Shown piece by piece: positions 7,852-41,560 of a stretch of 64,000 nucleotides of DNA. This DNA is from Siphonodentalium dalli (Eukaryota; Mollusca; Scaphopoda; Gadilida; Siphonodentaliidae), in NCBI GenBank assembly GCA_032622095.1, contig CP136066.1:129239917-129303916 (forward strand). Reading direction: 5' to 3'. The position numbers were made by a program, and so were the translations under genes. The number at the start of each line of letters is the position of its first letter. Position 1 is the stretch's first letter. The notes under the pieces were generated by a model. That model ran no database searches. It was not told the origin of the DNA and saw nothing but the letters and a program-made list of their open reading frames with translations.

Positions 7852-7980
7852 CTTAGTTTTCCCAGTTCTAATCCATATTCACTTGTTATTGCCTCTATCT
7901 TCTTTGAGTGCTCTTCTTCGTGAGTACTTCTCAGTTTTTCTTTGGATGATTCATGCACTTTCTCACAAGCCTTCTGACAC
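7852..7980 (-). CDS. Coiled-coil host exon (downstream of the 41.6 kb exon)
   Basis: This is a minus-strand 129-bp exon. The acceptor is TTTTAATTCAAAG at 7981 and up, and the donor is CTAAG|GTACAA at 7851. Entered with one base completing a split codon, it reads CQKACEKVHESSKEKLRS, then EEEHSKKIEAITSEYG and ELGKLR, a charged heptad-rich helix, and leaves again in phase 2. The exon at 41585-41715 ends in phase 2 with AG, so joining gives Arg and an uninterrupted coiled coil. I do not recognise the protein; it does not look like a LINE ORF1. The remaining exons must lie outside the window or in parts I could not resolve. Confidence 0.6.
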
Positions 7981-8197
7981 CTTTGAATTAAAATAAAATG
8001 GTTGAAATGGATCTCAATGAAAGTGTCAATGACACTGTAGCTCAACTTGGAGAGGGCATAATTTCATCGTTACAGTCAATAGAGCGATTAGGAATGTGAA
8101 AAGTTGAAATGTCTAAATATACTATTAATTATCAACATGAAGAGACATATATAAAGTAAAATCCAAGATGGCCACGGAATGAAACTAAAATTCAATG

Positions 8198-9617
8198 AGA
8201 GGCCGATCGTGATGTTTAACCCATACCTTAGCGATAGTGATTAGCTATTTTCAGCTTATACACTAAAATTCATAACATTCAATGTTAATCTTCAAAGTAC
8301 TCTGTGGCCCATACAATTAAATCATCCATGACAGTATGAACAAATTGAAACTATGGTCCTGGCAATAATCCACACCAAGATATTAATGACATCCGCCATC
8401 TTGGACTGGAGTAAAAGGTTTTTGAAGTACTCATTTGATTTAGCCAGGGTTTCCGCTATACCGGCAGGGGGTCCCCTTGATGGCCCAGTTCCCCTCGCCA
8501 AGTTTTCCCCTCCTGCCATACCCCAGGACATACTGCATGTCTATAAAGGTATAAAGATGTTTAAAACTTCTGAATTTTGTTGGAATAGTACTAAGGAATT
8601 TTAAAAGGTGAATTTATTTTATATCTTGTGAGTGTACACACTCTAAACGCGTTGTTAAATTGAAACATGAAGTGATCGGAACTGACATCGCTAGACACTA
8701 TGCCTTTGAGGCTGGTTAGTTACGTTGCGGTTAATACCCGGTTATGTTATGCAAAAGAGCAGTATTTTAATCATACCTGTCATGTTTTATACCGCAAAAT
8801 ATACTGTTCACTTTGTAATAGAGCGAGAGAGAAATGTGGGAGTAGCCGCACCGGGCATCAAGGCATCTTACCACTGCCCACAAAGAATACTCGTCGGCCA
8901 GATATGTAATCAGCCTTAATATATTCCGATTGCGTTATGCATCTGAAATATCTGCTGGGTCTTCCACAGTGAGTCTTTTAACATTAACGAGCATGTTTAA
9001 CTCGGGATCCAAATTCTGGTTTTCTGTACATGTACTTCGTAAATTAATTTATATCTAATAAATTTACAAGTTTTAAAGTTACAGGTACATGTATAAGGTT
9101 TGATAGCTTGACACTTGGGCAGAAATGGAACAAAACAATCTGCCATTTCTACTCTCACACGATTCTATTGGCCGATATAACGAAAGTAGTTCAACCAGTG
9201 CTAAAAGTAAAACAGGCTACTTTTACCTGGATTTTTCCCCTTGACGGCTACCGGCCCCATTCCCCTATCCCCGAGCGGAAACCCTGATTTAGCGTTATCT
9301 GACCCTTTTGTTGTCTCCTGTCTAGGACCCCCTGAAGCCCCTAACATGATAAACCGATAACAGGCCTAAATGCTCAAAAGTACTCAATAGATTTTTTCAT
9401 ACACTGAACAAACAGCAAATGATTTATGTTCGAGTTGAAATCCATGAAACCCTATATCCATCAATGTTAATCTTCTGACCCCTCGGTGCCCCCTAAAATT
9501 CACTCAACCATGACCATATCAACAAATTATAACTAGGTATTATAGCAATGGTACATGGTATATAGCAATAAAATACATGATAGTTAACTAGAGATTTGAT
9601 GTTGAATTATAGAGTAT
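8198..9617 (+). mobile_element. Pearl/HINE-like element P1, outer copy, left part
   Basis: It starts with a GAGAGGCCGATC...GATGTTTAACCCAT block that also begins the P1 copy inside the LINE at 14663. The segment stops at GAATTATAGAGTAT (to 9617), where the nested copy continues directly with ACTGTTATG; that continuation is found here only after the LINE, at 17791. This is therefore one P1 copy split by a LINE insertion. It is also interrupted by a small hAT at 8445-9285 and is longer than the nested copy by several hundred bp. Confidence 0.7.
8445..9285. mobile_element. Non-autonomous hAT-like element, family E
   Basis: The inverted ends are CAGGGTTTCCGCT and AGCGGAAACCCT, with the exact 8-bp target duplication GATTTAGC at 8437-8444 and 9286-9293. 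The 841-bp interior is rich in pyrimidine runs near both ends and encodes no transposase. Removing it joins the surrounding P1 sequence without a gap. Confidence 0.88.
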
Positions 9618-9851
9618 TTCCGGTAATGTTACACGACAGTCGACTGTAAATTTTTGGGAGGAATTCTCGCTCAAAAGTTTTATATTTGAGGTGGTTTTCG
9701 TAAAATGTTCTTCTTTGTGTTATAGATTGGACTGTGTATCGTAATATTCTTATAAACGTAAGTCTGACATGGACAGCGCCTGAAAATAGTGATTTAAAAA
9801 CCAAATCGGAGATAATTTGAAATCCACACGTGACCTTGACATTCAGTCAAA

Positions 9852-10626
9852 ATGACCGATGAAAAAAAAGCTGAATCTGCCGATGAGGTTAGCAGAAGTG
9901 ACCTGAAGATTTTAATCCTTCAATTACAACAAAACATGAAAACTTCACTAGATATGATGAAAAATTCAATTGATCAGATTGGTAATGACATGAAGCAAAT
10001 AAAAATAGACCATGCTGAACTCCATAAATGTGTTGCATATAATGCAGAGCAGATTGAAGATGTGACCAACAATATAATTCCATTGATTGAAGCCAATCTC
10101 AAAGCAGAGTGTAGTGAGTTAAGAGATTTAATAACACTGGCTGAAACCCATGACAGAAAATACAGCTTATTGTTTTACGGTTATAAGGAACACAACAATG
10201 AAGACACTTACGCAGTTATTCAAAAATCACTTGTTGAGGATCTCAAAGTAGAGCAAACTAGAGCAGCTCAAATTATGGACAGATGCGTTAACGCCCATCG
10301 AATACCAGTCAACAGATTTGGAAACAGAGCTAAATCGGAACAAAAACCCAACCCTATTATTGTTGTTTTGGCAACAGACCGTGACAAACAAGCTGTTGTC
10401 GGGAGCAACTCAAAAACTATTCGGCACAGGAAAAAGTGTTAGAACAGATCTTCCTGCCCACTTGAAGAAGAAACGTGGGGATCTTGCAGAAACTGCTTTT
10501 AAACTACGCAAACAGTACAAAAAGAAAACACGCATTATTGTACAAGGGGTAAATGTGATTCTGCAGCACAGAAATTCGACCGAAGAGAGGTGGACAGACT
10601 ACAATGGTGGCTTCGACTTCAAGTGA
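9852..10626 (+). pseudogene. LINE ORF1 (coiled coil, RRM, C-terminal domain), one frameshift
   Basis: The N-terminal 100 or so residues form a heptad-rich coiled coil (ILQLQQNM, IDQIGNDMKQI). An RRM-like segment follows, starting at RKYSLLFYGYKE and reaching PIIVVLATDRDKQAVV, then a basic C-terminal part (DLPAHLKKKRGDLAETAFKL) ending in VILQHRNSTEERW. This is the type II ORF1 layout, an RNA-binding chaperone of the LINE particle. The frame is lost near 10395, where the second half moves to another frame ending at 10626. The start is the first ATG of the open frame, just downstream of the LINE left edge. Confidence 0.82.
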
Positions 10627-10950
10627 TAAGACATTTGTGTTGTATGATATTTGTTGTGTGTTGACATTTACTTAAGTTTAATTTTAATGAATTTTGATAC
10701 GGTAATTGGCAATTTTTGGCTCTCAATGGAGAATTTTGTCTGTGCAGAAAGGGTTGGATGATCTCGAGACTCCTTTCCCTTTCTTGTACATTGATGAGAT
10801 ACTTTATATGGGGGCCAAACATTATTCAATATCTGCAAATATTTATATTTTCAATATTTGCTACATACATGTAAAAAGAAAAAACAAATTTAAAAAAAAA
10901 TCTTATCCTTTATTGTAATTATGACAATGTTCTTCCACCAAAAACTCAAG

Positions 10951-11372
10951 GTTTTTATGTTTCTGCATTGTCATTCCACTGGCACTCAACTAGAAACAAA
11001 CAACAGTTGATGATAGCATTGTTAAATACAGCTTTATATATGCTGGTTTCTATTGTTAATACCTGTATCCAGTATTAACTAATATTAGATTATGACCTAA
11101 TTTTTCCTGGATGTGACTTTAAATTAATTGTATACTTGTAACTTTCATAATTTACAACCAGGTTCTTATGTTTCTGCATTGTCATTCCACTGACACTCAA
11201 CTAGAAACAAACAACAGTTGATGATAGCATTGTTAAATACAGCTTTATATGTGCTAGTTTCTATTGTTAATACCTGTATCCAGTATTAACTAATATCAGA
11301 TTATGACCTAATTTTTCCTGGATGTGACTTTGAATTAATTGAATACTTGTAACTTTCATAATTTACTACCAG
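10951..11372 (+). repeat. 211-bp tandem duplication in LINE intergenic region
   Basis: Two copies starting near TTCTGCATTGTCATTCCACT at 10961 and 11172 (period 211 bp) differ by only a few bases, such as GGCACTC versus GACACTC. The low divergence suggests a recent local duplication compared with the decayed LINE around it. Confidence 0.85.
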
Positions 11373-12390
11373 TAAATGTTCTAGTAGCCTACTGCTAATC
11401 TGTAATAAACACTTATCGTGTACCGTACTCGATATAATTTGTCTACCACAACACGCCAAGAAACGAAATATAGTGTAAATTTTACTTTTAAAGACTTTAT
11501 CCCCACTATTGTCTGACAGTTCGCACGTGGACATGTTAGCCGACCTCGATTTGGTAAACATAATTGTAATAATAAACAACCTAATTCTGTGAAGACCGCC
11601 CACTTCTAAATTTAGACCAACTCTGTTTCATGCAGACTCATACAACTTAGAATATGCATAAATTACCCATGATTCCACAATACGATCAAATACGATTGGC
11701 AATATGGACGTCAATGATCAGAAATGTTTGATTTTACGATTCGTCAGAATGCATCTATGATAATAGCGTGAAGCGTAAGCTGTATTATGAACTTTTATAT
11801 ATACCGTAGCTTTCTGTGAGTAATTCTCTATTCCACAAACTTTATGATGGATGTATAAATATTTCTGGTGATATTTTTAGCAATGTTTACAATGTAAATA
11901 TTGGCGGTAAATACGAACATGTGGATGCCATAAATTGATAAATCTTACAGTGTTTGACGTTATGATGAAATTGAAGAAACTGAAACAACAAATATATAGA
12001 TCATATTTTGAACTTGCTACCGTGCTGTATAACTTTGTAAGTTTGAATTCACTAGCTCAGTGACCACCCGGTGAAAACTAATATTAATTATCATTTTTTT
12101 TTATAATTATGAGTATTATAACATATGCCTACAGTGATACATTATAATGAAATAGTGTCACATTTTTATGTCTCTTTTGCATACATTAGTCTTTAACCAT
12201 CTATTATATGACTGAATGTACATACTGGTACTACTTTCATTTTTATTTTGTTATATATCTTATTTGTTTTTGTTCACCAGCTCTCAGTATGATACATATA
12301 TATTACCAATTGATAGATCTTATTCACACAACTCATTCCGATATTTGACCGCATCTCTCGATCAGGCCCTGAATTTTTTCATACTTCCCA
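11373..12390. other. LINE inter-ORF region, no gene recognised
   Basis: This AT-rich stretch lies between the duplication and the ORF2 start. With the duplication it makes the ORF1-ORF2 gap about 1.7 kb, long for a LINE, so unrecognised insertions are likely. A 60-codon hydrophobic frame at 12216-12398 is probably accidental. Confidence 0.4.
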
Positions 12391-12740
12391 ATGGCTAATC
12401 AGGACATTTCTGATGAAAGTGATAGTGACAATGATGAGATAAGTACCGATTGTAAGTATTATTCCCCTGCAGAATATAGTCAGTTAAATAAACAAACAGG
12501 GCTGTCACTCAAGCTATTTCACTTGAACTGTCAGAGCATCGGAGCTCATTGGGATCCTTTTAATGAACTGATTGACTCTTTACATGCAAACTCTAATACA
12601 CTCGATATAATTGGAATAAGTGAGTTCTTTAGGCAACCTGAGCAATGCTGTTTTGACCTTGATGGCTATACCCTGTATACTAAAACCAGATCAATAGATG
12701 ATGACTGCCATGGAGGAGTTGGGTGCTTTGTTAATAACAA
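12391..12740 (+). pseudogene. LINE ORF2, N-terminal endonuclease part
   Basis: It begins with an acidic leader (MANQDISDESDSDNDE) and then LKLFHLNCQSIGAHWDPF and LDIIGISE, the N-terminal motifs of an apurinic-like endonuclease that nicks the target for target-primed reverse transcription. The frame continues to GGVGCFVNN, where a pearl-like element interrupts it at 12741. The sequence resumes after 13333 with the next endonuclease residues. Confidence 0.85.
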
Positions 12741-13333
12741 GTGCACCGCTGGGCGGAGGTAACGCCCCCGACTGTACAATCAGAGAAACTTTCTGGTTAA
12801 GCGCTATAAAAATGCCAGATGTTGTTCTATATTAGCTTCAAATTTGGTCTGGTGCCACAAAAATAGAAGGAAAACTGAATTTTCTAAAAAAAAAACACTG
12901 AATTTTTTAAGTCGAAAAAGGGTCATAACTCTCACAAAAATTATCCGATTGAACCGAAATTTTACCTTGACCTGTATTGCGATATTGGTAATACACAAAA
13001 ATACGGGTTTTGCAAATAAACAATCCAAAATCAAGTTATCATCTGGAAACCAAAAAAAGTAGCAGAAAACCTGAATTTTCTAAGTCCAAAAAGGGGCATA
13101 ACTCTGGAAAAAATGGGCGGACAAAACCGCAGTTATGGGGAAATCTTGTCCCCCCGGCTGGTCTATTAGCATACCAAAGATCAACTGAATTGAGTTAGCG
13201 AAACCAAAGTTACGAGTTGAAACGTTCGTACGGACGGAAGGACGGACGGAAGGACGGAAGGACGGAAGGACGGACGGACGGAGGGCTCCACTATATACCC
13301 CCAAATCTCCATCGGAGATCGGGGGCATAATAA
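12741..13333 (+). mobile_element. Pearl/HINE-like element inserted in LINE endonuclease
   Basis: It begins GTGCACCGCTGGGCGG and near its start has GTAACGCCCCCGA, whose inverse GATCGGGGGCAT closes the 3' stem-loop (CCCCCAAATCTCC...GGAGATCGGGGG). The body has two related units containing AAAAGGGNCATAACTCT, and a GGAC/GGAA tract at 13230-13285 precedes the stem-loop. Excising it restores the LINE frame (VNNK-LTLKLRDDL). No clear duplication flanks it beyond an ambiguous AA, as expected for Helitron-type insertion. Confidence 0.75.
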
Positions 13334-14662
13334 ATTAACCCTTAAACTAAGAGATGATCTAACATTATTCTTACCACATGTATTTGAATCAGTCTTTATA
13401 GAAGTCCAGCCACAAAATTGTAAGCCGTATATCATTGGTGTAATATATCGCCCGAACACCCGACCAAAGGCTGATTTAGACTTATTCATGGCACATTTTA
13501 ACTTAATAACTAAAGCTATAAATAAGGAAGGGAAATATTCCTATATAATGGGTGACTTCAATATTAATAACTTAAATTATCATGTTCACCCTAAAACTGA
13601 AACTTTCATTGATAACACATTAACTCAAGGTTTTGTTCAAGTGATTTCAAGGGCAACTCGTGTCACAGACTATTCATCGTCACTAATAGATCATATATAT
13701 ATTCAAACAATCCATCTCCTTTTATATCAGGTGTCGTTGTTACTGATGTTAGTGATAATTTTGGTGTATTTTATTGCCTAACTAAAAAAAATATAATAAA
13801 GTCTACCGAAAGTAAATTTGTCAAAAAACGTTGCTTAAATAATCACAACAAAGAACGATTCAAATTGTTACTTTCCTCGTGTTCATTTTCTTCTGTTCTT
13901 GAGTCGTCTTGTCCAAATGATGCATTTGACAAATTTCAGAATATTATAGCTACAGCTTATGAGACTGCCTACCCACTAAAACTTATTAAGGTGCAACAAA
14001 ACAAGAAACAAAAGCGAAATCCATGGATGACAAATGGCCTAATTACATCAGCTTTAAATAAAAACAACTATTGCGAAAAAAAATTAAACATCCAACAACA
14101 GGAAACCAAGAAAAATATAAAAAATACTGTCAAATATTCAACTCCACTATGCGAGTTAGTAAACGATTGTATTATGAAACCATTCTGGAAGCGAATAAAA
14201 AAGACATGAAGAAAACTTGGCAAATTATGAACAATGCAATTATCCGAAAACATAATAATTCTGATATACCATGTACAATAACTAGGAATAGCATAGATTA
14301 TAATGATCCAGAACAAATAGCAAATGCCTTCAATACATACTTCTCTGAAGCAGCTCAAGACACACTCAAAAAGATAAATGAGGTACCCATAACAAAATCC
14401 TACACAGAATATTTAAAGGAACCAAAAAAGGATAGTTTTTTCCTGTACCCGTCTAGTCCTAATGAAATTCTTCATATTACTGGCAGCTTCAAAAATAAAA
14501 AAAAGTGTTGATAACTTTGGTCTTACTACAGAGCTCTTGAAAGAGACATGTCAGTACATGTCTCATCCAATATCGCATATTGTAAATCTTTCCTATGAAA
14601 ACGGTAAATTTCCTGATGCAATGAAAATTGCCCGTGCAGTCCCAATTCATAAAACCAGAGAT
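13334..14662 (+). pseudogene. LINE ORF2, endonuclease C-terminal half, linker and RT start
   Basis: It resumes with KLRDDLTLFLPH, then PYIIGVIYRPN, SYIMGDFNINNL and LIDHIYIQ, which are the central and C-terminal endonuclease motifs. Frame changes occur near 13715, 14075 and 14500. The linker includes RKIKHPTTGNQEKYKKY, SKRLYYE and KKTWQIMNNAI. The RT begins with DNFGLTTELLK and IARAVPIHK, and is cut at 14662 by the second P1 copy. Confidence 0.82.
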
Positions 14663-16177
14663 AACGAGAGGCCGATCACGATCGGCAGATGTTTAACCCA
14701 TCCCTTGGCGATAATAAATTGTTATGATCAGAATCATTATTATGTTAATGTTGAATTATAGAGTATACTGTTATGATCTAAAGTAGTATATGACAAATGT
14801 ACATAATAACCAGTAATAACACAAATTATTGGAATGTATGAGTCAATATAGAAGGGTTAATATAACATCTAAACTCTAGAGCCTGTCACCACTATCATAG
14901 TGTAAGCAGTTCTATTCATGTTGTTGCAAATTGCCATGTGAGATATCAAAATAATATAATTATTTATTTAATGGAAAAGGTTAAAAGACATGGAATGGGT
15001 AAAAGGGGTTAAATCACCTATCTCTGCCCTGTTTGATCCAATGTAGTCCCATCATCCAAGGACTTAGAGAGCTCCATTGGTCTAGTTAAATAAATTCACA
15101 TGGCTAAGTTGTGGTTAAAAAGATAGCTAAATCAATTTATCCAATAATTCACTTATCTGTGTCTTATACAGAGCTAACATATGAGGGCTATAAATAACTC
15201 TCAAAGCAATAAACTATATTGTCTTTTATCTTGCTCACAGAGAAGCAGGTATTCATTAATTGTAAGTTACTTGGGTTATAATCTGGATAATTCTTAGTTT
15301 AAAAAGGGCCATATCTTTGGTATAACAAATTGGATCTAACCCATATTCAAACTCGTTCTGTATTTTGAGTTGAGAAACTCACATACCAAATTTGGTTCCT
15401 ATCAGATGAAAAATGGTTGATTTATCGAAGTACATGTATGTGTGAATTATATGTCAAAGGACCATAACTCCATTAAAAATCCGATCAAACCCATATTCGA
15501 ACTCAATCTGTATGTTGGTCTGAGAAACTCATACACCAAATTTGGTTCCAATCAGATAAAAAATGTTAGAGTTATGGCAGAATTAATGAATTCTAATTCG
15601 AAAAAGGGCCATAACTCCGTAAAAAAAAGTCGGATCAAACCCATATTCGAACTCAATCTGTATTTTGGGCCGAGAAACTCACATATCAAATTTGGTTCCG
15701 ATCAGATAAAAAATGTTTGAGTTATGGCAGAATTCATGAATTCTAAGTCGAAAAAGGGCCATAACTCCGTAAAAAAAAGTCGGATCAAACCCATATTCGA
15801 ACTCAATCTGTATTTTGGGCCGAGAAACTCACATACCAAGTTTGGTTCCGATTAGATAAAAAATGTTTGAGTTATGGCAGAATGTGTGAATTCTAAGTAA
15901 AAAAAAGGGCCACAACTCTGTAAAAAAAAGTCGGATCAAACCCATATTCGAACTCGATCTGTATTTTGGGCTGAAAACCCCATATACAAATTTTGGTTTT
16001 GATCAGGTAAAAAATGTTTGAGTTATCGCATTACACGTAAAGTGTCTACGGACGGACAGACGGACGGACAGACGGACGGACAGACGGACGGACAGACGGA
16101 CGGACGGACGGACGAACGACGAGTGGTCAATCCGGACGTTGACACTATGTGTACCATACTATGGTATGGGTACACAT
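14663..16177 (+). mobile_element. Pearl/HINE-like element P1, copy nested in LINE reverse transcriptase
   Basis: Excision joins AGAGAT (to 14662) to AAAAATGATGTC (from 16178), restoring the reverse transcriptase frame R-D-K-N-D-V-C-N-Y-R-P-I-S. There is no target duplication. The 5' end carries a GCCGATC/GATCGGC stem and AACCCATCCCTTGG, whose inverse recurs in the 3' terminal hairpin TGTGTACCATACTATGG...GGTACACA. Inside are five tandem units of about 150 bp starting near 15301, 15451, 15601, 15751 and 15902, then a GGACAGAC tract at 16045-16115. This layout matches the oyster 'pearl' elements, regarded as Helentron-derived non-autonomous elements. Confidence 0.85.
15301..16030 (+). repeat. 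150-bp tandem core of P1 (five units)
   Basis: Each unit contains AAAAAGGGCCATAACTC, CCCATATTCGAACTCAATCT, GAGAAACTCACATACCAA and GTTTGAGTTATGGCAGAAT. Units 3 and 4 are nearly identical and the outer ones more diverged. The outer P1 copy has three such units (18600-19020) and the fragment at 41321 has one, so unit number varies between copies. Confidence 0.9.
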
Positions 16178-17495
16178 AAAAATGATGTCTGCAACTACCG
16201 ACCAATAAGCATCCTTCCTGTATTTTCAAAAATATTAGAAAAGGCTACCTATAGAAGACTGATTGATTTTTTAGAGATGAAAAATTTACTAAACCCTATG
16301 CAATTTGGCTTCAGAAAACATCACTCTACAATCCACCCTCTCCTGAAACTTCTGAATCACATAGGCGAAATGAATGATAAAAAAACTAAAGATTCAACAT
16401 TGGCATTATTTTTAGATTTTTCGAAAGTGTTTGATACTATAGATCATAATATCTTATTGGAAAAAATGGAATACTGTGGGATCCGTGGAGTAGTCAACAA
16501 TTTTTTCAGAAGCTATCTAACCAATAGAAAGCAATATGTAGATCATTCTGGAAAAAAATCTGATTATAGAGCCGTTTCCACTGGAGTGCCCAAGGCTCCA
16601 TACTCGGACCGATATTATTTTTAATATATGTAATTGACATGCCAAACTCCACAAAATTTAACATGCTGTCTTTTGCAGATGACACAACTGCATAAGCGTC
16701 CAGTCCTGACATTGCGAAACTCTTCCATGACGCAAATATTGAATTGCACAACATATTTCTATGGTGTGCTGCCAATAAACTTGTTCTAAATGCATCTAAA
16801 TCGAAATACATGGTGTTTAATGCCAATCCTGACCGAAGCTACCTTGTTCGTAATAAACTTAAATTGGATGAGCAATGTATTCAACCTGTAAGCGCATTAG
16901 TGGGCGATCCATCCTTTAAATTTCTCGGTATTCACTTAGATGAAAACCTGGAATTCAATTACCATATTGATTATCTCCATAAAAAATATCCAAAACTATA
17001 CATTGCCTAAATAGGGCAAAACGTTTTCTTCCAAGAAATGCATTAAATCGCATATATGACTCTCTCATACATAGCAAACTATCATATGGCATTGAAATTT
17101 GGGGTGTTTCAACAGGTATTGAGAAACTTTTTAAACTACAAAAAAGAGCCATTAGACTGATAAATAATGCAAAATATAATTCTCATACAGAACCCTTTAT
17201 ATTTGAACAAAGTAAAATATTGAAAATTAGTAATCTCCATTCATTGAAATCATCCCTTACTGCATATGATTGGAAAAATGGACTCTTACCACATTCATTG
17301 AATAATCTTTTGGAAAATACACCGCGGACTGGTAGGGCTTCCCGCCAAATAAACAACCTTGCACATAAGACACCCAGGATAAAATATACTGAGCGATTGC
17401 CACTTCACCAAATCCAAAATGCCTGGAACTCATTACCTCTCACAATGAAAACCTCCATCCCAAGATTTACATTTAAACGACATATAGTAAGATAG
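16178..17495 (+). pseudogene. LINE ORF2, reverse transcriptase core and C-terminal part
   Basis: It encodes NYRPISILPVFSKILEK, FGFRKHHST, LALFLDFSKVFDTIDH, then GVP with a one-base loss (near 16590) leading into GPILFLIYVIDMP and the catalytic FADDTT, followed by an in-frame TAA. The thumb and C-terminal part run through FLWCAANKLVLNASKS and FLGIHLDENLEF, shift frame near 17005, and continue with RAKRFLPRNALNRIYDSL to a stop after FKRHIVR. All RT blocks are identifiable; at least two frameshifts and one stop inactivate it. Confidence 0.88.
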
Positions 17496-17790
17496 TTATA
17501 TTGAAAACTATAAAAGTAAAGTTATTTGCGAAAATCGATATTGCTCTGACTGTACGAACCAATAAGTAACAAGGTATTACCTACGGTATAAACCCTTCTT
17601 ACATGCATATCGATTTGTCACATTCACATGTCGTTAATTTTCTTTTGCCTGGGCGATGCTGGGAAGACGGCCATTAGGTCACACCACCGCCCGGATTCTG
17701 TATGTGCATTGAATTTTCTAATATTATTTTTATAAATCCTATTGTATATGTACATGCTTTATCCAATAAACTATCTATCTATCTATCTAT
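17496..17790 (+). other. LINE 3' UTR, hairpin and tetranucleotide tail
   Basis: After the ORF2 stop there is GCCTGGGCGATGCTGG ... CCACCGCCCGG near 17648-17695, a GC-rich stem that could serve as a recognition structure for reverse transcriptase. A (CTAT)n tail follows at about 17770-17790. Simple tetranucleotide tails are typical of several APE-type LINEs. Confidence 0.7.
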
Positions 17791-19105
17791 ACTGTTAAGT
17801 ACTGAAGTGTGATAGACAAATGTACATAATAGCACAAATCTATTCTAATATATGGCTCAAAAGAGAAGGGTTAATATAACATCTGAACCATAGAGCCTGT
17901 CACCACTACCATAGTATAAGCAGTTCTATTTATATTATTGCAAATTGCCACATGAGATATCAAAATAATATAGTTACTTAATATTGGACAAGTTTAAACG
18001 ACATGGAATGGGTAAACAGGTTTAAATCTCCTATATGTGGCCCTGTTTGATCCAAGGACCTATATATGTACAGTAGAGCTCCAGTGTTCTAGTTAATTAG
18101 CTTCACCTGGTTAAGGGGTGGTTAACACATACCAGTAGACATCAATATAGTATCCATGCTCTGTGGAATTCACTCAACCATGACCATATGAAAAGAATAA
18201 TAAATATGCCTAATGGCAATGCTCCATGCCAAGTTTTAATATGGAAATCTGCCCATTGAGATGGCAGCCGATTTTTAAAATTATTTAAAGTAGTGCTACT
18301 GAATGGGGTTCTCTCTGTCTGCTCAAATTCTGAGAACATCCCTACACATGAACAATAGACTATTCTAATTTATACTTTTAGAACTGAATGGGAGAGTCCA
18401 TTGAATCATGAATGGGTTACACCTTACACTGCTATGTGTGGTGAATTATATTATATAGAGCTAACCTATGATGGCTAAAAATAACTCTAATCTAATATTT
18501 AAAGACACATTACCTCTGGTCTCTTGCAGCTAAAGCAGATATTAGAAGTAATTTGTTGTAAGCTGCTATTATCAGAAAACCTCAAATATATTTAATATTC
18601 TTGGTTGATAAAGGGTCATAACTCCTGTATATAAAATTGGATAAAACCCATATTCGAACTCGATCTTTATTTTGAATTGAGAAATTTGGTTCCAAGCAGA
18701 TGAAAAATGGTTGATTTATCGAAACAACCGTGAATTCTATGTCAAAGGGCCATAACTCTATTAAAGAACATCGGATCAAACCCATATTCGAACTTGATCT
18801 GTATTTTGGGCTGAGAAACTCACATACCAAATATGTTTCCAATCAGATAAAAAATAAAAAATTGAGATATGGCAGCATGCATGAATTCTAAGCTGAAAAA
18901 GAGCCATAACACTGTAAAAAAAAAACTCGATCAAACCCATATTCGAACTCGCTCGATCTGTATTTCGGGCTGAGAAACCCACATTCAAAATTTGGTTCCG
19001 ATCGGATAGAAAATGTTTGAGTTTATATCGCATTACGCATAAAGTGTCTACGAATGGACAGGCAGACAGATGGACAGACGGACAGACAGCCGAATGTCGA
19101 GTTGT
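17791..19105 (+). mobile_element. Pearl/HINE-like element P1, outer copy, right part
   Basis: It is similar to 14768-16100 over most of its length, for example GAAGGGTTAATATAACATCT and AGAGCCTGTCACCACTA. About 310 bp at 18150-18460 are absent from the nested copy. Three core units start near 18606, 18745 and 18895, and the GGACAGAC tract is at 19055-19090. The terminal hairpin seen in the nested copy is missing, so the 3' end is truncated or replaced. Confidence 0.78.
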
Positions 19106-20755
19106 AGCCTGTAGCCCATGCCAAAGGATTTAATCATGCAAAGAATAAAATCCAAGATGGCTGCTGGCGGCCATGTTTTTTGGCCGAATGACCAAAAAAT
19201 TAATCATTCCCATCTACAAGTCAATATTAGGCACCTTGTCAAATTACAAATGGAAATTCCAGCAGAGAACAGAGTTTTTTCTCTGCTCTTTGCTCAAAAT
19301 AGCAAAAAACGCGGCGGAGTTTATGGTGGGAGTTTTCATTACGTTCACTGGAGTTTCCGGTAGATTTTTCTTCCAATGAATCCACTCACATATATATAAA
19401 CTCCCTATAAACTCCGCTGAAGTTTTTAATAGGAAACCCGGCAGAGTTTTTTTGTTTTTTTCAAAGCTTCAGTTTGACGGCATACAATAATTTCATTCTT
19501 AATACTCGTATTGAAAGATGTAGGCATTTATGTGTACACGATTCGGGACTGAGTGTTTTACATGAAATCCAAGAGAAAAACTATATTTGGCCCCATCAGA
19601 TGATTACTGAGCATTGTGATCAATATCATCCTCCATTTACAGCTTGTGTTCGACTATTTATAGCCGGTAGGGCATTGTTACACCATGTGTATTGCTTACA
19701 ATTTATATGATAGAGTTCAGCCCCCTGCTACACCAGCCTGATTATTGCGATAGTGTGTATACACAAAGAGGGAAATACAACTAGAGGTGTGACTGTCCCA
19801 ATGGAACTATTATTAAAAGGATACCTCCCGTGTTTTTAAAATATTAAGATGTTTCACATGTCAGTAAAGATTTAGTTAAAATAATAAAATGACAGCTTTC
19901 ATTGTAGGTGCACAACCCTAACCCTAATCTTAAAACCTATTGACCGAAAAATGTAGGAATAAAAGCTCGGACAAAATTATGCATTTTGAGAAAATTTTGT
20001 AAGTTGAAAAAGGGGGCTAACTCCAAAAAAAATCAGACAGACCTCATAATCAATGTAACAGAGATTGAATATTTCAAACCAACACTCCAAATTTGCCGCT
20101 GTCAATCAATACATAAGACAAGCTGGGAGGAGGAGTCATCTGCATCAAATTGCCACACGGTGGATGTAATATCTTGCCCCAGAAATTTGAGGATGCAGAA
20201 TAACCTTTGACCTAAATTAAATAATAACTTCAAAAGACGAGATGATGTCCAATGCCAGCGCGTGGTCAAATAGAGATTCACGATGGGAAAGTTATGGTTT
20301 ATCATGCAAAGTCAACAGGCAGCGATCCCTGAATAATATTTTACGAACTTTATGGATGTATGTAATTATGGCGACCAGAGGCTAATTAAAGTCTGAATAA
20401 TAAAGTCCAACAGTCAGATGCTCGTAGCCCGTTTATATATAACCATGGGTATATGTCAGATATAACCGTACAAAAAAACGCCGTTCTTTTCACCGTGTAT
20501 TTATCCATGGTGTGCGTGCCTGTGGTTGTCCGTAACATGGTGCCCGGTGTTATTGCTTTGAAAGGGAATCATGTTCGACTGGTGTTGTCAGATTGGTAAG
20601 ATGAGATTAGCGGTTTCTATGTCTTGTCTGGTCACATTTACTGTTTGAACTTTGTCTGAAATAGACGCACTTTTTATACTAGAATTTGCGCAACAGGAGC
20701 GCAGGGAAATCGCACGTCGAGTTGGTTTAAGGGTTTTTAGAAAAAGTATTTATAT
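19106..20755. other. No gene; AAGATGGC repeat and low-complexity sequence
   Basis: TCCAAGATGGCTGCTGG at about 19150 matches a repeat also seen at 27853. Weak pearl-type wording (AAAAAGGGGGCTAACTCC) occurs at about 20008. The open frames at 19118-19379, 19474-19710 and 19986-20210 show no recognisable motif. Confidence 0.45.
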
Positions 20756-41320: not shown

Positions 41321-41560
41321 AAGGGGCATAACTCAGTTAAAAATATTTGAACTGGATCTGTCTTTTGGGCTGAGAAATTCATATACAAAATTTGGTTCCG
41401 ATCAGATAGAAAATATTTGAGTTATCGCATCATGCGTAAAGTGTCTGCGGACTGCCAGACAGACAGAGGAACAGACGAACCAATGACGAGTGGTCAATCC
41501 GAATGTCGCCACTATGTTTACCATACTATGGTATGGGTAAACATAAACAAAAACAAAAAC
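41321..41560 (+). mobile_element. P1 element, 5'-truncated copy
   Basis: It has one core unit (AAAGGGGCATAACTC ... TTTGGTTCCGATCAGATAGAAAA), the CAGACAGACAGAG tract and the complete 3' hairpin TTTACCATACTATGGTATGG with GTAAA. The CGAGTGGTCAATCCG segment is shared with the copy in the LINE. Confidence 0.8.

Follow-up and report, generated by a model that had tools for sequence, protein, structure and literature searches.

Can the order in which mobile elements entered a genome be read from one locus at which they interrupt one another? The question is raised by a stretch of 64,000 nucleotides from the scaphopod Siphonodentalium dalli (the window; C6:129239917-129303916 in a nine-contig genome of 2.227 Gb), in which an initial annotation had described, at 8198-19105, a four-layer nest of mobile elements datable by insertion order and built around a repeat called P1. 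The nest and its order stand, while the count of four layers does not: there are five mobile elements in three nesting levels. An outer P1 contains a transposon with terminal inverted repeats (TIRs; 8445-9286) and, separately, a long interspersed nuclear element (LINE; 9614/9618-17790), which itself contains a pearl-like element (12738-13331) and an inner, young P1 copy (14665-16177). The levels number three, the TIR element and the LINE having entered the outer P1 independently; nesting gives no relative order for these two. With a probability of roughly 0.95, we regard the nest as the product of separate insertions, each by a mobile element of a known kind. It is an ordinary, well-preserved stack of transposons, and its insertion order is real. 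Each of the five elements lies where first proposed, to within a few bases, and the features of the locus are as follows.

8196-8444, minus strand: segment 1 of the outer P1 (HINE-type, HINEs being non-autonomous Helentrons), bearing the 3′ end of the element (leftmost in the window); alignable with the inner P1 at its left end and with loci L021, L023 and L035
8445-9286, strand unassigned: non-autonomous TIR transposon with 13-bp perfect TIRs CAGGGTTTCCGCT and the 7-bp target-site duplication (TSD) ATTTAGC
9287-9617, minus strand: segment 2 of the outer P1, next to segments 1 and 3 in L021 and L023
9614-17790, plus strand: LINE, recognized from its relatives L039 and L040, the ends of other copies and a reverse transcriptase (RT) domain
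10949-11372, plus strand: two 211-bp tandem units of the LINE, between open reading frames ORF1 and ORF2, from the repeat listing
12738-13331, minus strand: pearl-like HINE-type element within the LINE; site empty in L039 and L040, ends as in paralogues
14665-16177, minus strand: inner P1, a young HINE-type subfamily, recognized from paralogue ends, the site empty in L039 and L040, repeats and hairpins
17626-17629, plus strand: point of a ~155-bp deletion in the window LINE copy, from comparison with other LINE copies
17791-19104, minus strand: segment 3 of the outer P1, with 150-bp-type repeats and microsatellite and without the terminal hairpin; continues segment 2 in L021 and L023
19108-19248, plus strand: unit of a ~164-bp satellite-like repeat adjoining the truncated end of the outer P1; several copies in L030, in tandem at 164 bp

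The nest region was read at 7900-19500, its repeats were listed, the elements were compared pairwise and each of them was searched against the genome. These DNA searches score the best 40 candidates, and the resulting copy lists are lower bounds ranked by similarity to the window copy. Both the order of insertion and the empty sites are directly demonstrated, paralogues supplying an unoccupied site for each of the four inner insertions. The unity of the outer P1 is apparent from L021 (C8:22899900-22903400) and L023 (C5:113310800-113314000), which carry its segments contiguously and in the same order, with small length differences only; the stretches 8196-8444, 9287-9617 and 17791 to ~19104 are therefore one element. 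Its right end at ~19104 was placed by BLAST homology up to 19087 and, for the remainder, by eye against L021, the right terminus with its terminal hairpin having been lost. Segment 3 matches C2:81522943-81524193 at 86%, the sole long match among those listed, and the other listed matches of outer P1 segments lie at 76-84% (leading matches of one search) and 76-89% (a second search). Just left of the element, 8014-8175 is a dispersed ~157-bp repeat with at least 39 other copies at 86-92%. The ~164-bp satellite-like tandem repeat on its right (unit 19108-19248) contains AAAATCCAAGATGGCTGCTGGCGGCC, and in L030 a P1 copy is inserted into this repeat.

The TIR element is flanked by ATTTAGC at 8438-8444 and 9287-9293, and in all 13 outer-type P1 loci fetched an alignment of its joined flanks (100 + 100 bases) spans the site, reaching only 16 bases on the left side in L022 and L106. 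At least 39 other copies exist in the genome at 93-98%. The window copy and 20 of the others (L041-L060) are short, with CAGGG ends. Among these 21, the 7-bp TSD is exact in 18; L049 and L056 have one mismatch in seven, and L042 has three. A common 8-bp TSD was considered and rejected, being exact in 0 of the 21 copies. The initial annotation had the outer P1 split by a hAT element and by the LINE. Empty-site paralogues bear out both splits; membership of hAT is not established, because the target duplication is 7 bp, as the 18 exact copies indicate.

For the LINE, an empty site joining GAGTAT to ACTGTT had been predicted, and this junction is indeed widespread. In every one of the 26 P1 loci fetched, 13 outer-type and 13 inner-type, the joined flanks (100 + 100 bases) cross the site, so uninterrupted copies are found in both groups. 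The crossing is short in L035, L102, L106 and L108 (18-19 bases beyond the junction) and in the 13 inner-type loci (~22 bases before it), and L022 is rearranged near the site. The unoccupied target reads TAGAGTATACTG in L022 and L036, with one base different in L021, L023 and L035. An exact 26-mer over the joined target occurs 1,518 times genome-wide (787 + 731; reversed-pattern control, 0), and an exact 23-mer over the occupied 5′ junction occurs once (control, 0). Eleven LINE 5′ ends were fetched elsewhere, and of the ten that are readable five start GTATTTCC and three start GTACTTCC, the latter three representing one segmental duplication. Since LINE 5′ ends elsewhere begin in these ways, GTAT (9614-9617), common to target and LINE, either belongs to the LINE or is microhomology. 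A true TSD is unsupported for the LINE, eight of the ten readable ends carrying one or the other start; the TSDs of other LINE copies were judged by eye only.

Two LINE copies, L039 and L040, were fetched whole. In both, the site of the pearl-like element is empty and reads GTTAATAATAAATTAA, and that of the inner P1 is likewise empty and reads GAGATAAAAATGATG, in agreement with the proposal that the LINE is split by these two elements. The pearl-like element has at least 39 other copies at 93-99%, with both ends present in 20 of 20 fetched. The inner P1 has at least 39 other leading matches at 95-100%, both ends being present in all 13 inner-type copies fetched; over the full length, L024 differs from it at 2 of 1,518 positions. 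In L024, L025 and L026, near-identical P1 copies occupy one and the same position within a different short repeat, which has inverted ends, as if P1 had travelled with its host element. Two further P1 copies, L037 and L038 (C9:209.01 Mb), are 5 kb apart and have identical 30-base flanks on both sides, which points to local duplication. Elsewhere in the window, 41343-41547 is a fragment resembling the right end of the inner P1 at ~73%.

Private divergence offers a comparison with the order given by nesting. It was taken as the terminal branch of the window copy in FastTree trees, which sampled 20 of the 39 other listed copies for the TIR element, the pearl-like element and the LINE, and 13 of 39 for the inner P1; the second outer P1 tree contains the window and the 7 of 13 loci that the coverage filter retained, one row being very long (0.74). 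The outer P1 has terminal branches of 0.0402 (344 columns, 14 sequences) and 0.0664 (780 columns, 8 sequences), the TIR element 0.0154 (843 columns, 21 sequences) and the LINE 0.0100 (622 columns, 21 sequences), 62 of 5,308 LINE sites differing from both L039 and L040. The corresponding values are 0.0024 for the pearl-like element (484 columns, 21 sequences) and 0.0000 for the inner P1 (625 columns, 14 sequences), whose divergence overall is at most 0.13%. Fisher tests, for which tree branches were converted to rounded counts, make the outer P1 older than the LINE (p=1.6e-4 and 3.4e-18) and the LINE older than the inner P1 (p=2.8e-05), and give p=0.016 and 8.8e-08 for the outer P1 against the TIR element. 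Private divergence and nesting order agree; the ages are relative.

Several observations weigh against this picture of separate insertions by elements of known kinds, or blunt the support for it. The difference in divergence between the LINE and the pearl-like element is marginal (p=0.062), divergence orders neither the TIR element relative to the LINE (p=0.4) nor the pearl-like element relative to the inner P1 (p=0.56), and the branch lengths are relative because the copies were picked by similarity to the window copy. Genome searches with the left and right flanks of the outer P1 did not find its own empty site, because these flanks (~8014-8175 on the left, from 19108 on the right) are repeats; the right-flank search returned mostly a different repeat, further right. 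The longest exact inverted end-to-end match is 6 bp in P1 and 8 bp in the pearl-like element, a longer imperfect match being seen by eye only. Finally, no coding element with both P1 ends was found in the pieces searched, which miss some element ends.

One might suppose that the outer flanks come from different P1 copies or families joined by rearrangement, so that no single element was ever split. Such a history would allow for the missing right terminus and for the greater divergence of the right flank (0.066 vs 0.040 on the left). L021 and L023, however, carry the segments contiguously and in order, so that the flanks are those of one element and not of different families, the case that the initial annotation had set against its own proposal, and the joined flanks cross the LINE site in every one of the 26 P1 loci. 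This explanation is largely refuted and strikes us as very improbable; it survives only if two outer-type copies recombined and the breakpoint coincides exactly with the LINE. Alternatively, gene conversion may have overwritten older copies of the inner P1 and the pearl-like element, and their divergence would then say little on age. The identity of the inner P1 to at least four other copies over 625 unique columns, with a mean pairwise distance of 0.4% in the sample, would be consistent with this. Yet both whole LINE relatives examined, L039 and L040, carry neither insert, and nesting by itself makes both inserts younger than the LINE, so that we give conversion only slight credence. Nor do we place any appreciable weight on part of the nest being an assembly or haplotype artefact, since the element ends agree with other genomic copies, the TIR element bears its own exact TSD and private divergence differs from element to element.

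As to what P1 is, its minus strand opens with a 5′ hairpin, ATGTGTACC...GGTACACAT (10-bp exact arm; -16.8 kcal/mol over the first 50 bases), followed by a GTCC-type microsatellite and about five 150-bp repeats. The 3′ end on the same strand carries the palindrome GCCGATCGTGATCGGC (7-bp exact arm GCCGATC) and then ...CTCTCG before TT. In the inner copy the microsatellite is an ACGG array (GTCC on the minus strand), and the 150-bp repeat runs to 4.9 units. A 5′ hairpin and a microsatellite on the same plan are seen in the pearl-like element. Inner-type copies are preceded by AA in 12 of 13 cases (TA in L030) and followed by AA in all 13, that is, a TT target. Insertion is thus of the TT type without a clear TSD, a 2-bp duplication being indistinguishable from bases borne by the element; these 13 copies represent about ten independent sites, because three have one flank in common and two another. 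Judged by this anatomy, P1 and the pearl-like element appear to be minus-strand HINEs, a kind known from molluscs.

The inner and outer P1 have their left end in common in local alignment. To the right of the LINE site (14764-15118/17788-18125; 358 aligned columns) they are ~79% identical, and in their repeats 75-80%; the inner copy lacks ~0.5 kb that the outer one has between the common left end and the LINE site. Sequence comparison accordingly assigns them to different subfamilies, the young P1 being a shorter subfamily of the same lineage. They were compared by local matches and through paralogues instead of by a joined global alignment, which misplaces the left ends because of the ~0.5-kb length difference and the repeats. 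The claim that P1 was active both before and after the arrival of the LINE thus holds for the lineage and not for a single subfamily. Similarly, the inner P1, put forward as the empty-site reference for the LINE, serves as such close to the junction and not further away, because it is of a different subfamily and shorter by ~0.5 kb; outer-type paralogues are the proper reference.

The mechanisms of transposition are inferred from the anatomy of the elements. The outer P1 would have inserted by rolling-circle transposition, and a short non-autonomous TIR transposon later entered it, presumably by cut-and-paste, with a 7-bp duplication. Independently, the LINE entered the outer P1 at GAGTAT/ACTG, presumably by target-primed reverse transcription, its 5′ junction involving GTAT microhomology and an ambiguous duplication of at most 3 bp. 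Last, the pearl-like HINE and the young P1 HINE entered A/T-rich sites of the LINE.

Without its two inserts, the LINE is ~6.07 kb long, has broken ORFs and frames and ends in a (TATC)n tail. Its RVT_1 domain (PF00078) scores E=3.7e-18 and 66.4 bits (cut-off 29.6) in the frame 16022-16624, and the endonuclease PF14529, in a broken frame, scores E=0.0063 and 16.8 bits, under the 27.4 cut-off. Repeated matches to the 211-bp units at 10949-11372 were found also in L039 and L040. About 155 bp are missing from the window copy at 17626-17629, where the two sides of the join overlap by 4 bases. An extra ~150-165 bases are present at this point in 36 of the 39 other LINE copies listed, and also in L039 and L040; of the remaining three of the 39, one picks up again no earlier than query position 713 and two are without a second piece. 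Rough first-look counts gave 412 genome candidates for the 3′ end vs 23 for the 5′ end, an excess that matches expectation for 5′-truncated copies. The copies at C6:200.80, 212.18 and 212.70 Mb (L012-L017) have identical flanks, one of them inverted, and these common flanks point to segmental duplication.

A coding partner for P1 was sought among Helentron-like elements. Eleven loci with Helitron_like_N (of 151 matches) showed no match to P1 or pearl-like sequence. In three of six further Helitron_like_N elements with large ORFs, searched near their presumed ends, P1-type 3′ ends (90-95% over 39-51 bp) lie upstream (5′) of the Rep ORF; these three are at C2:5.30 Mb, C8:164.6 Mb and C8:82.5 Mb. 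In ORF orientation, the P1-type 3′ ends occur once or twice each:

L122, 471-509 and 1118-1158
L126, 72-122 and 867-906
L128, 656-695

Pieces resembling the P1 repeats adjoin these ends in L122 and L126, as does one of 20 bases in L128. The P1 5′ end had no match among the matches listed in the pieces searched of the six elements, a list from which weak pearl-like end matches may be absent. The ORFs of this large Helentron family are ~2,590-2,864 amino acids long. In L119, an element of similar score, a single frame encodes OTU, Helitron_like_N and PIF1 domains, and OTU proteases are reported for Helentrons in passages of PMC4067079. P1 could conceivably still be a mobile HINE family, driven by the large Helentron family with one or two P1-type 3′ ends 5′ of the Rep ORF, although we consider this rather unlikely. 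If it were so, the inner P1 copy may be polymorphic, and the position of the 3′ ends would point to joining head to tail and to the release of short non-autonomous elements by way of internal 3′ ends.

The locus leaves the general understanding of transposons unchanged. It serves as a clear illustration, the sequence of interruptions matching molecular divergence across five elements at a single place; it corrects three labels (the level count, the hAT assignment and the P1 subfamily), and it presents HINE-type elements inserted both before and after a LINE in one genome. The LINE may belong to the CR1/L2/Jockey group, which it resembles in its RT-containing ORF2, its short-repeat tail and the little or no TSD at the window site. 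The TIR element shares with hAT and P-superfamily transposons short TIRs, non-autonomy and a duplication of constant length. The usual hAT target duplication is 8 bp, in contrast to the 7 bp found here, and papers on Galileo, of the P superfamily, reportedly use the term ‘7-bp TSD’. A Repbase example query, in an excerpt of PMC4455052, seeks hAT families annotated ‘7-bp TSD’.

Dating of the REANNOTATE type likewise takes the order of nested insertions from which element interrupts which; here it was done by hand at one locus, with private divergence as an independent check. TinT and TRANScendence are said to be further approaches of this kind. Insertion order from interruptions is treated as an established method in portions of the REANNOTATE paper (PMC2672092). 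The closest counterparts of P1 and the pearl-like element would be the HINE, Cg_HINE and Pearl elements of bivalves, whose anatomy, as given in parts of PMC4067079 and PMC7492417, includes the terminal hairpin, the GTCC-type microsatellite, central tandem repeats (150 bp in P1, ~160 bp in Pearl), the 3′ palindrome and a TT-type target without a clear TSD. The likeness is one of anatomy, and there is a difference: the same sections report subterminal inverted repeats (subTIRs) of 11-15 bp for HINE-type elements, against exact inverted matches of 6 and 8 bp here. The parallel extends to the choice of host, some Cg_HINEs being described in part of PMC7492417 as sitting in other transposons, just as the pearl-like element and the inner P1 sit in the LINE.

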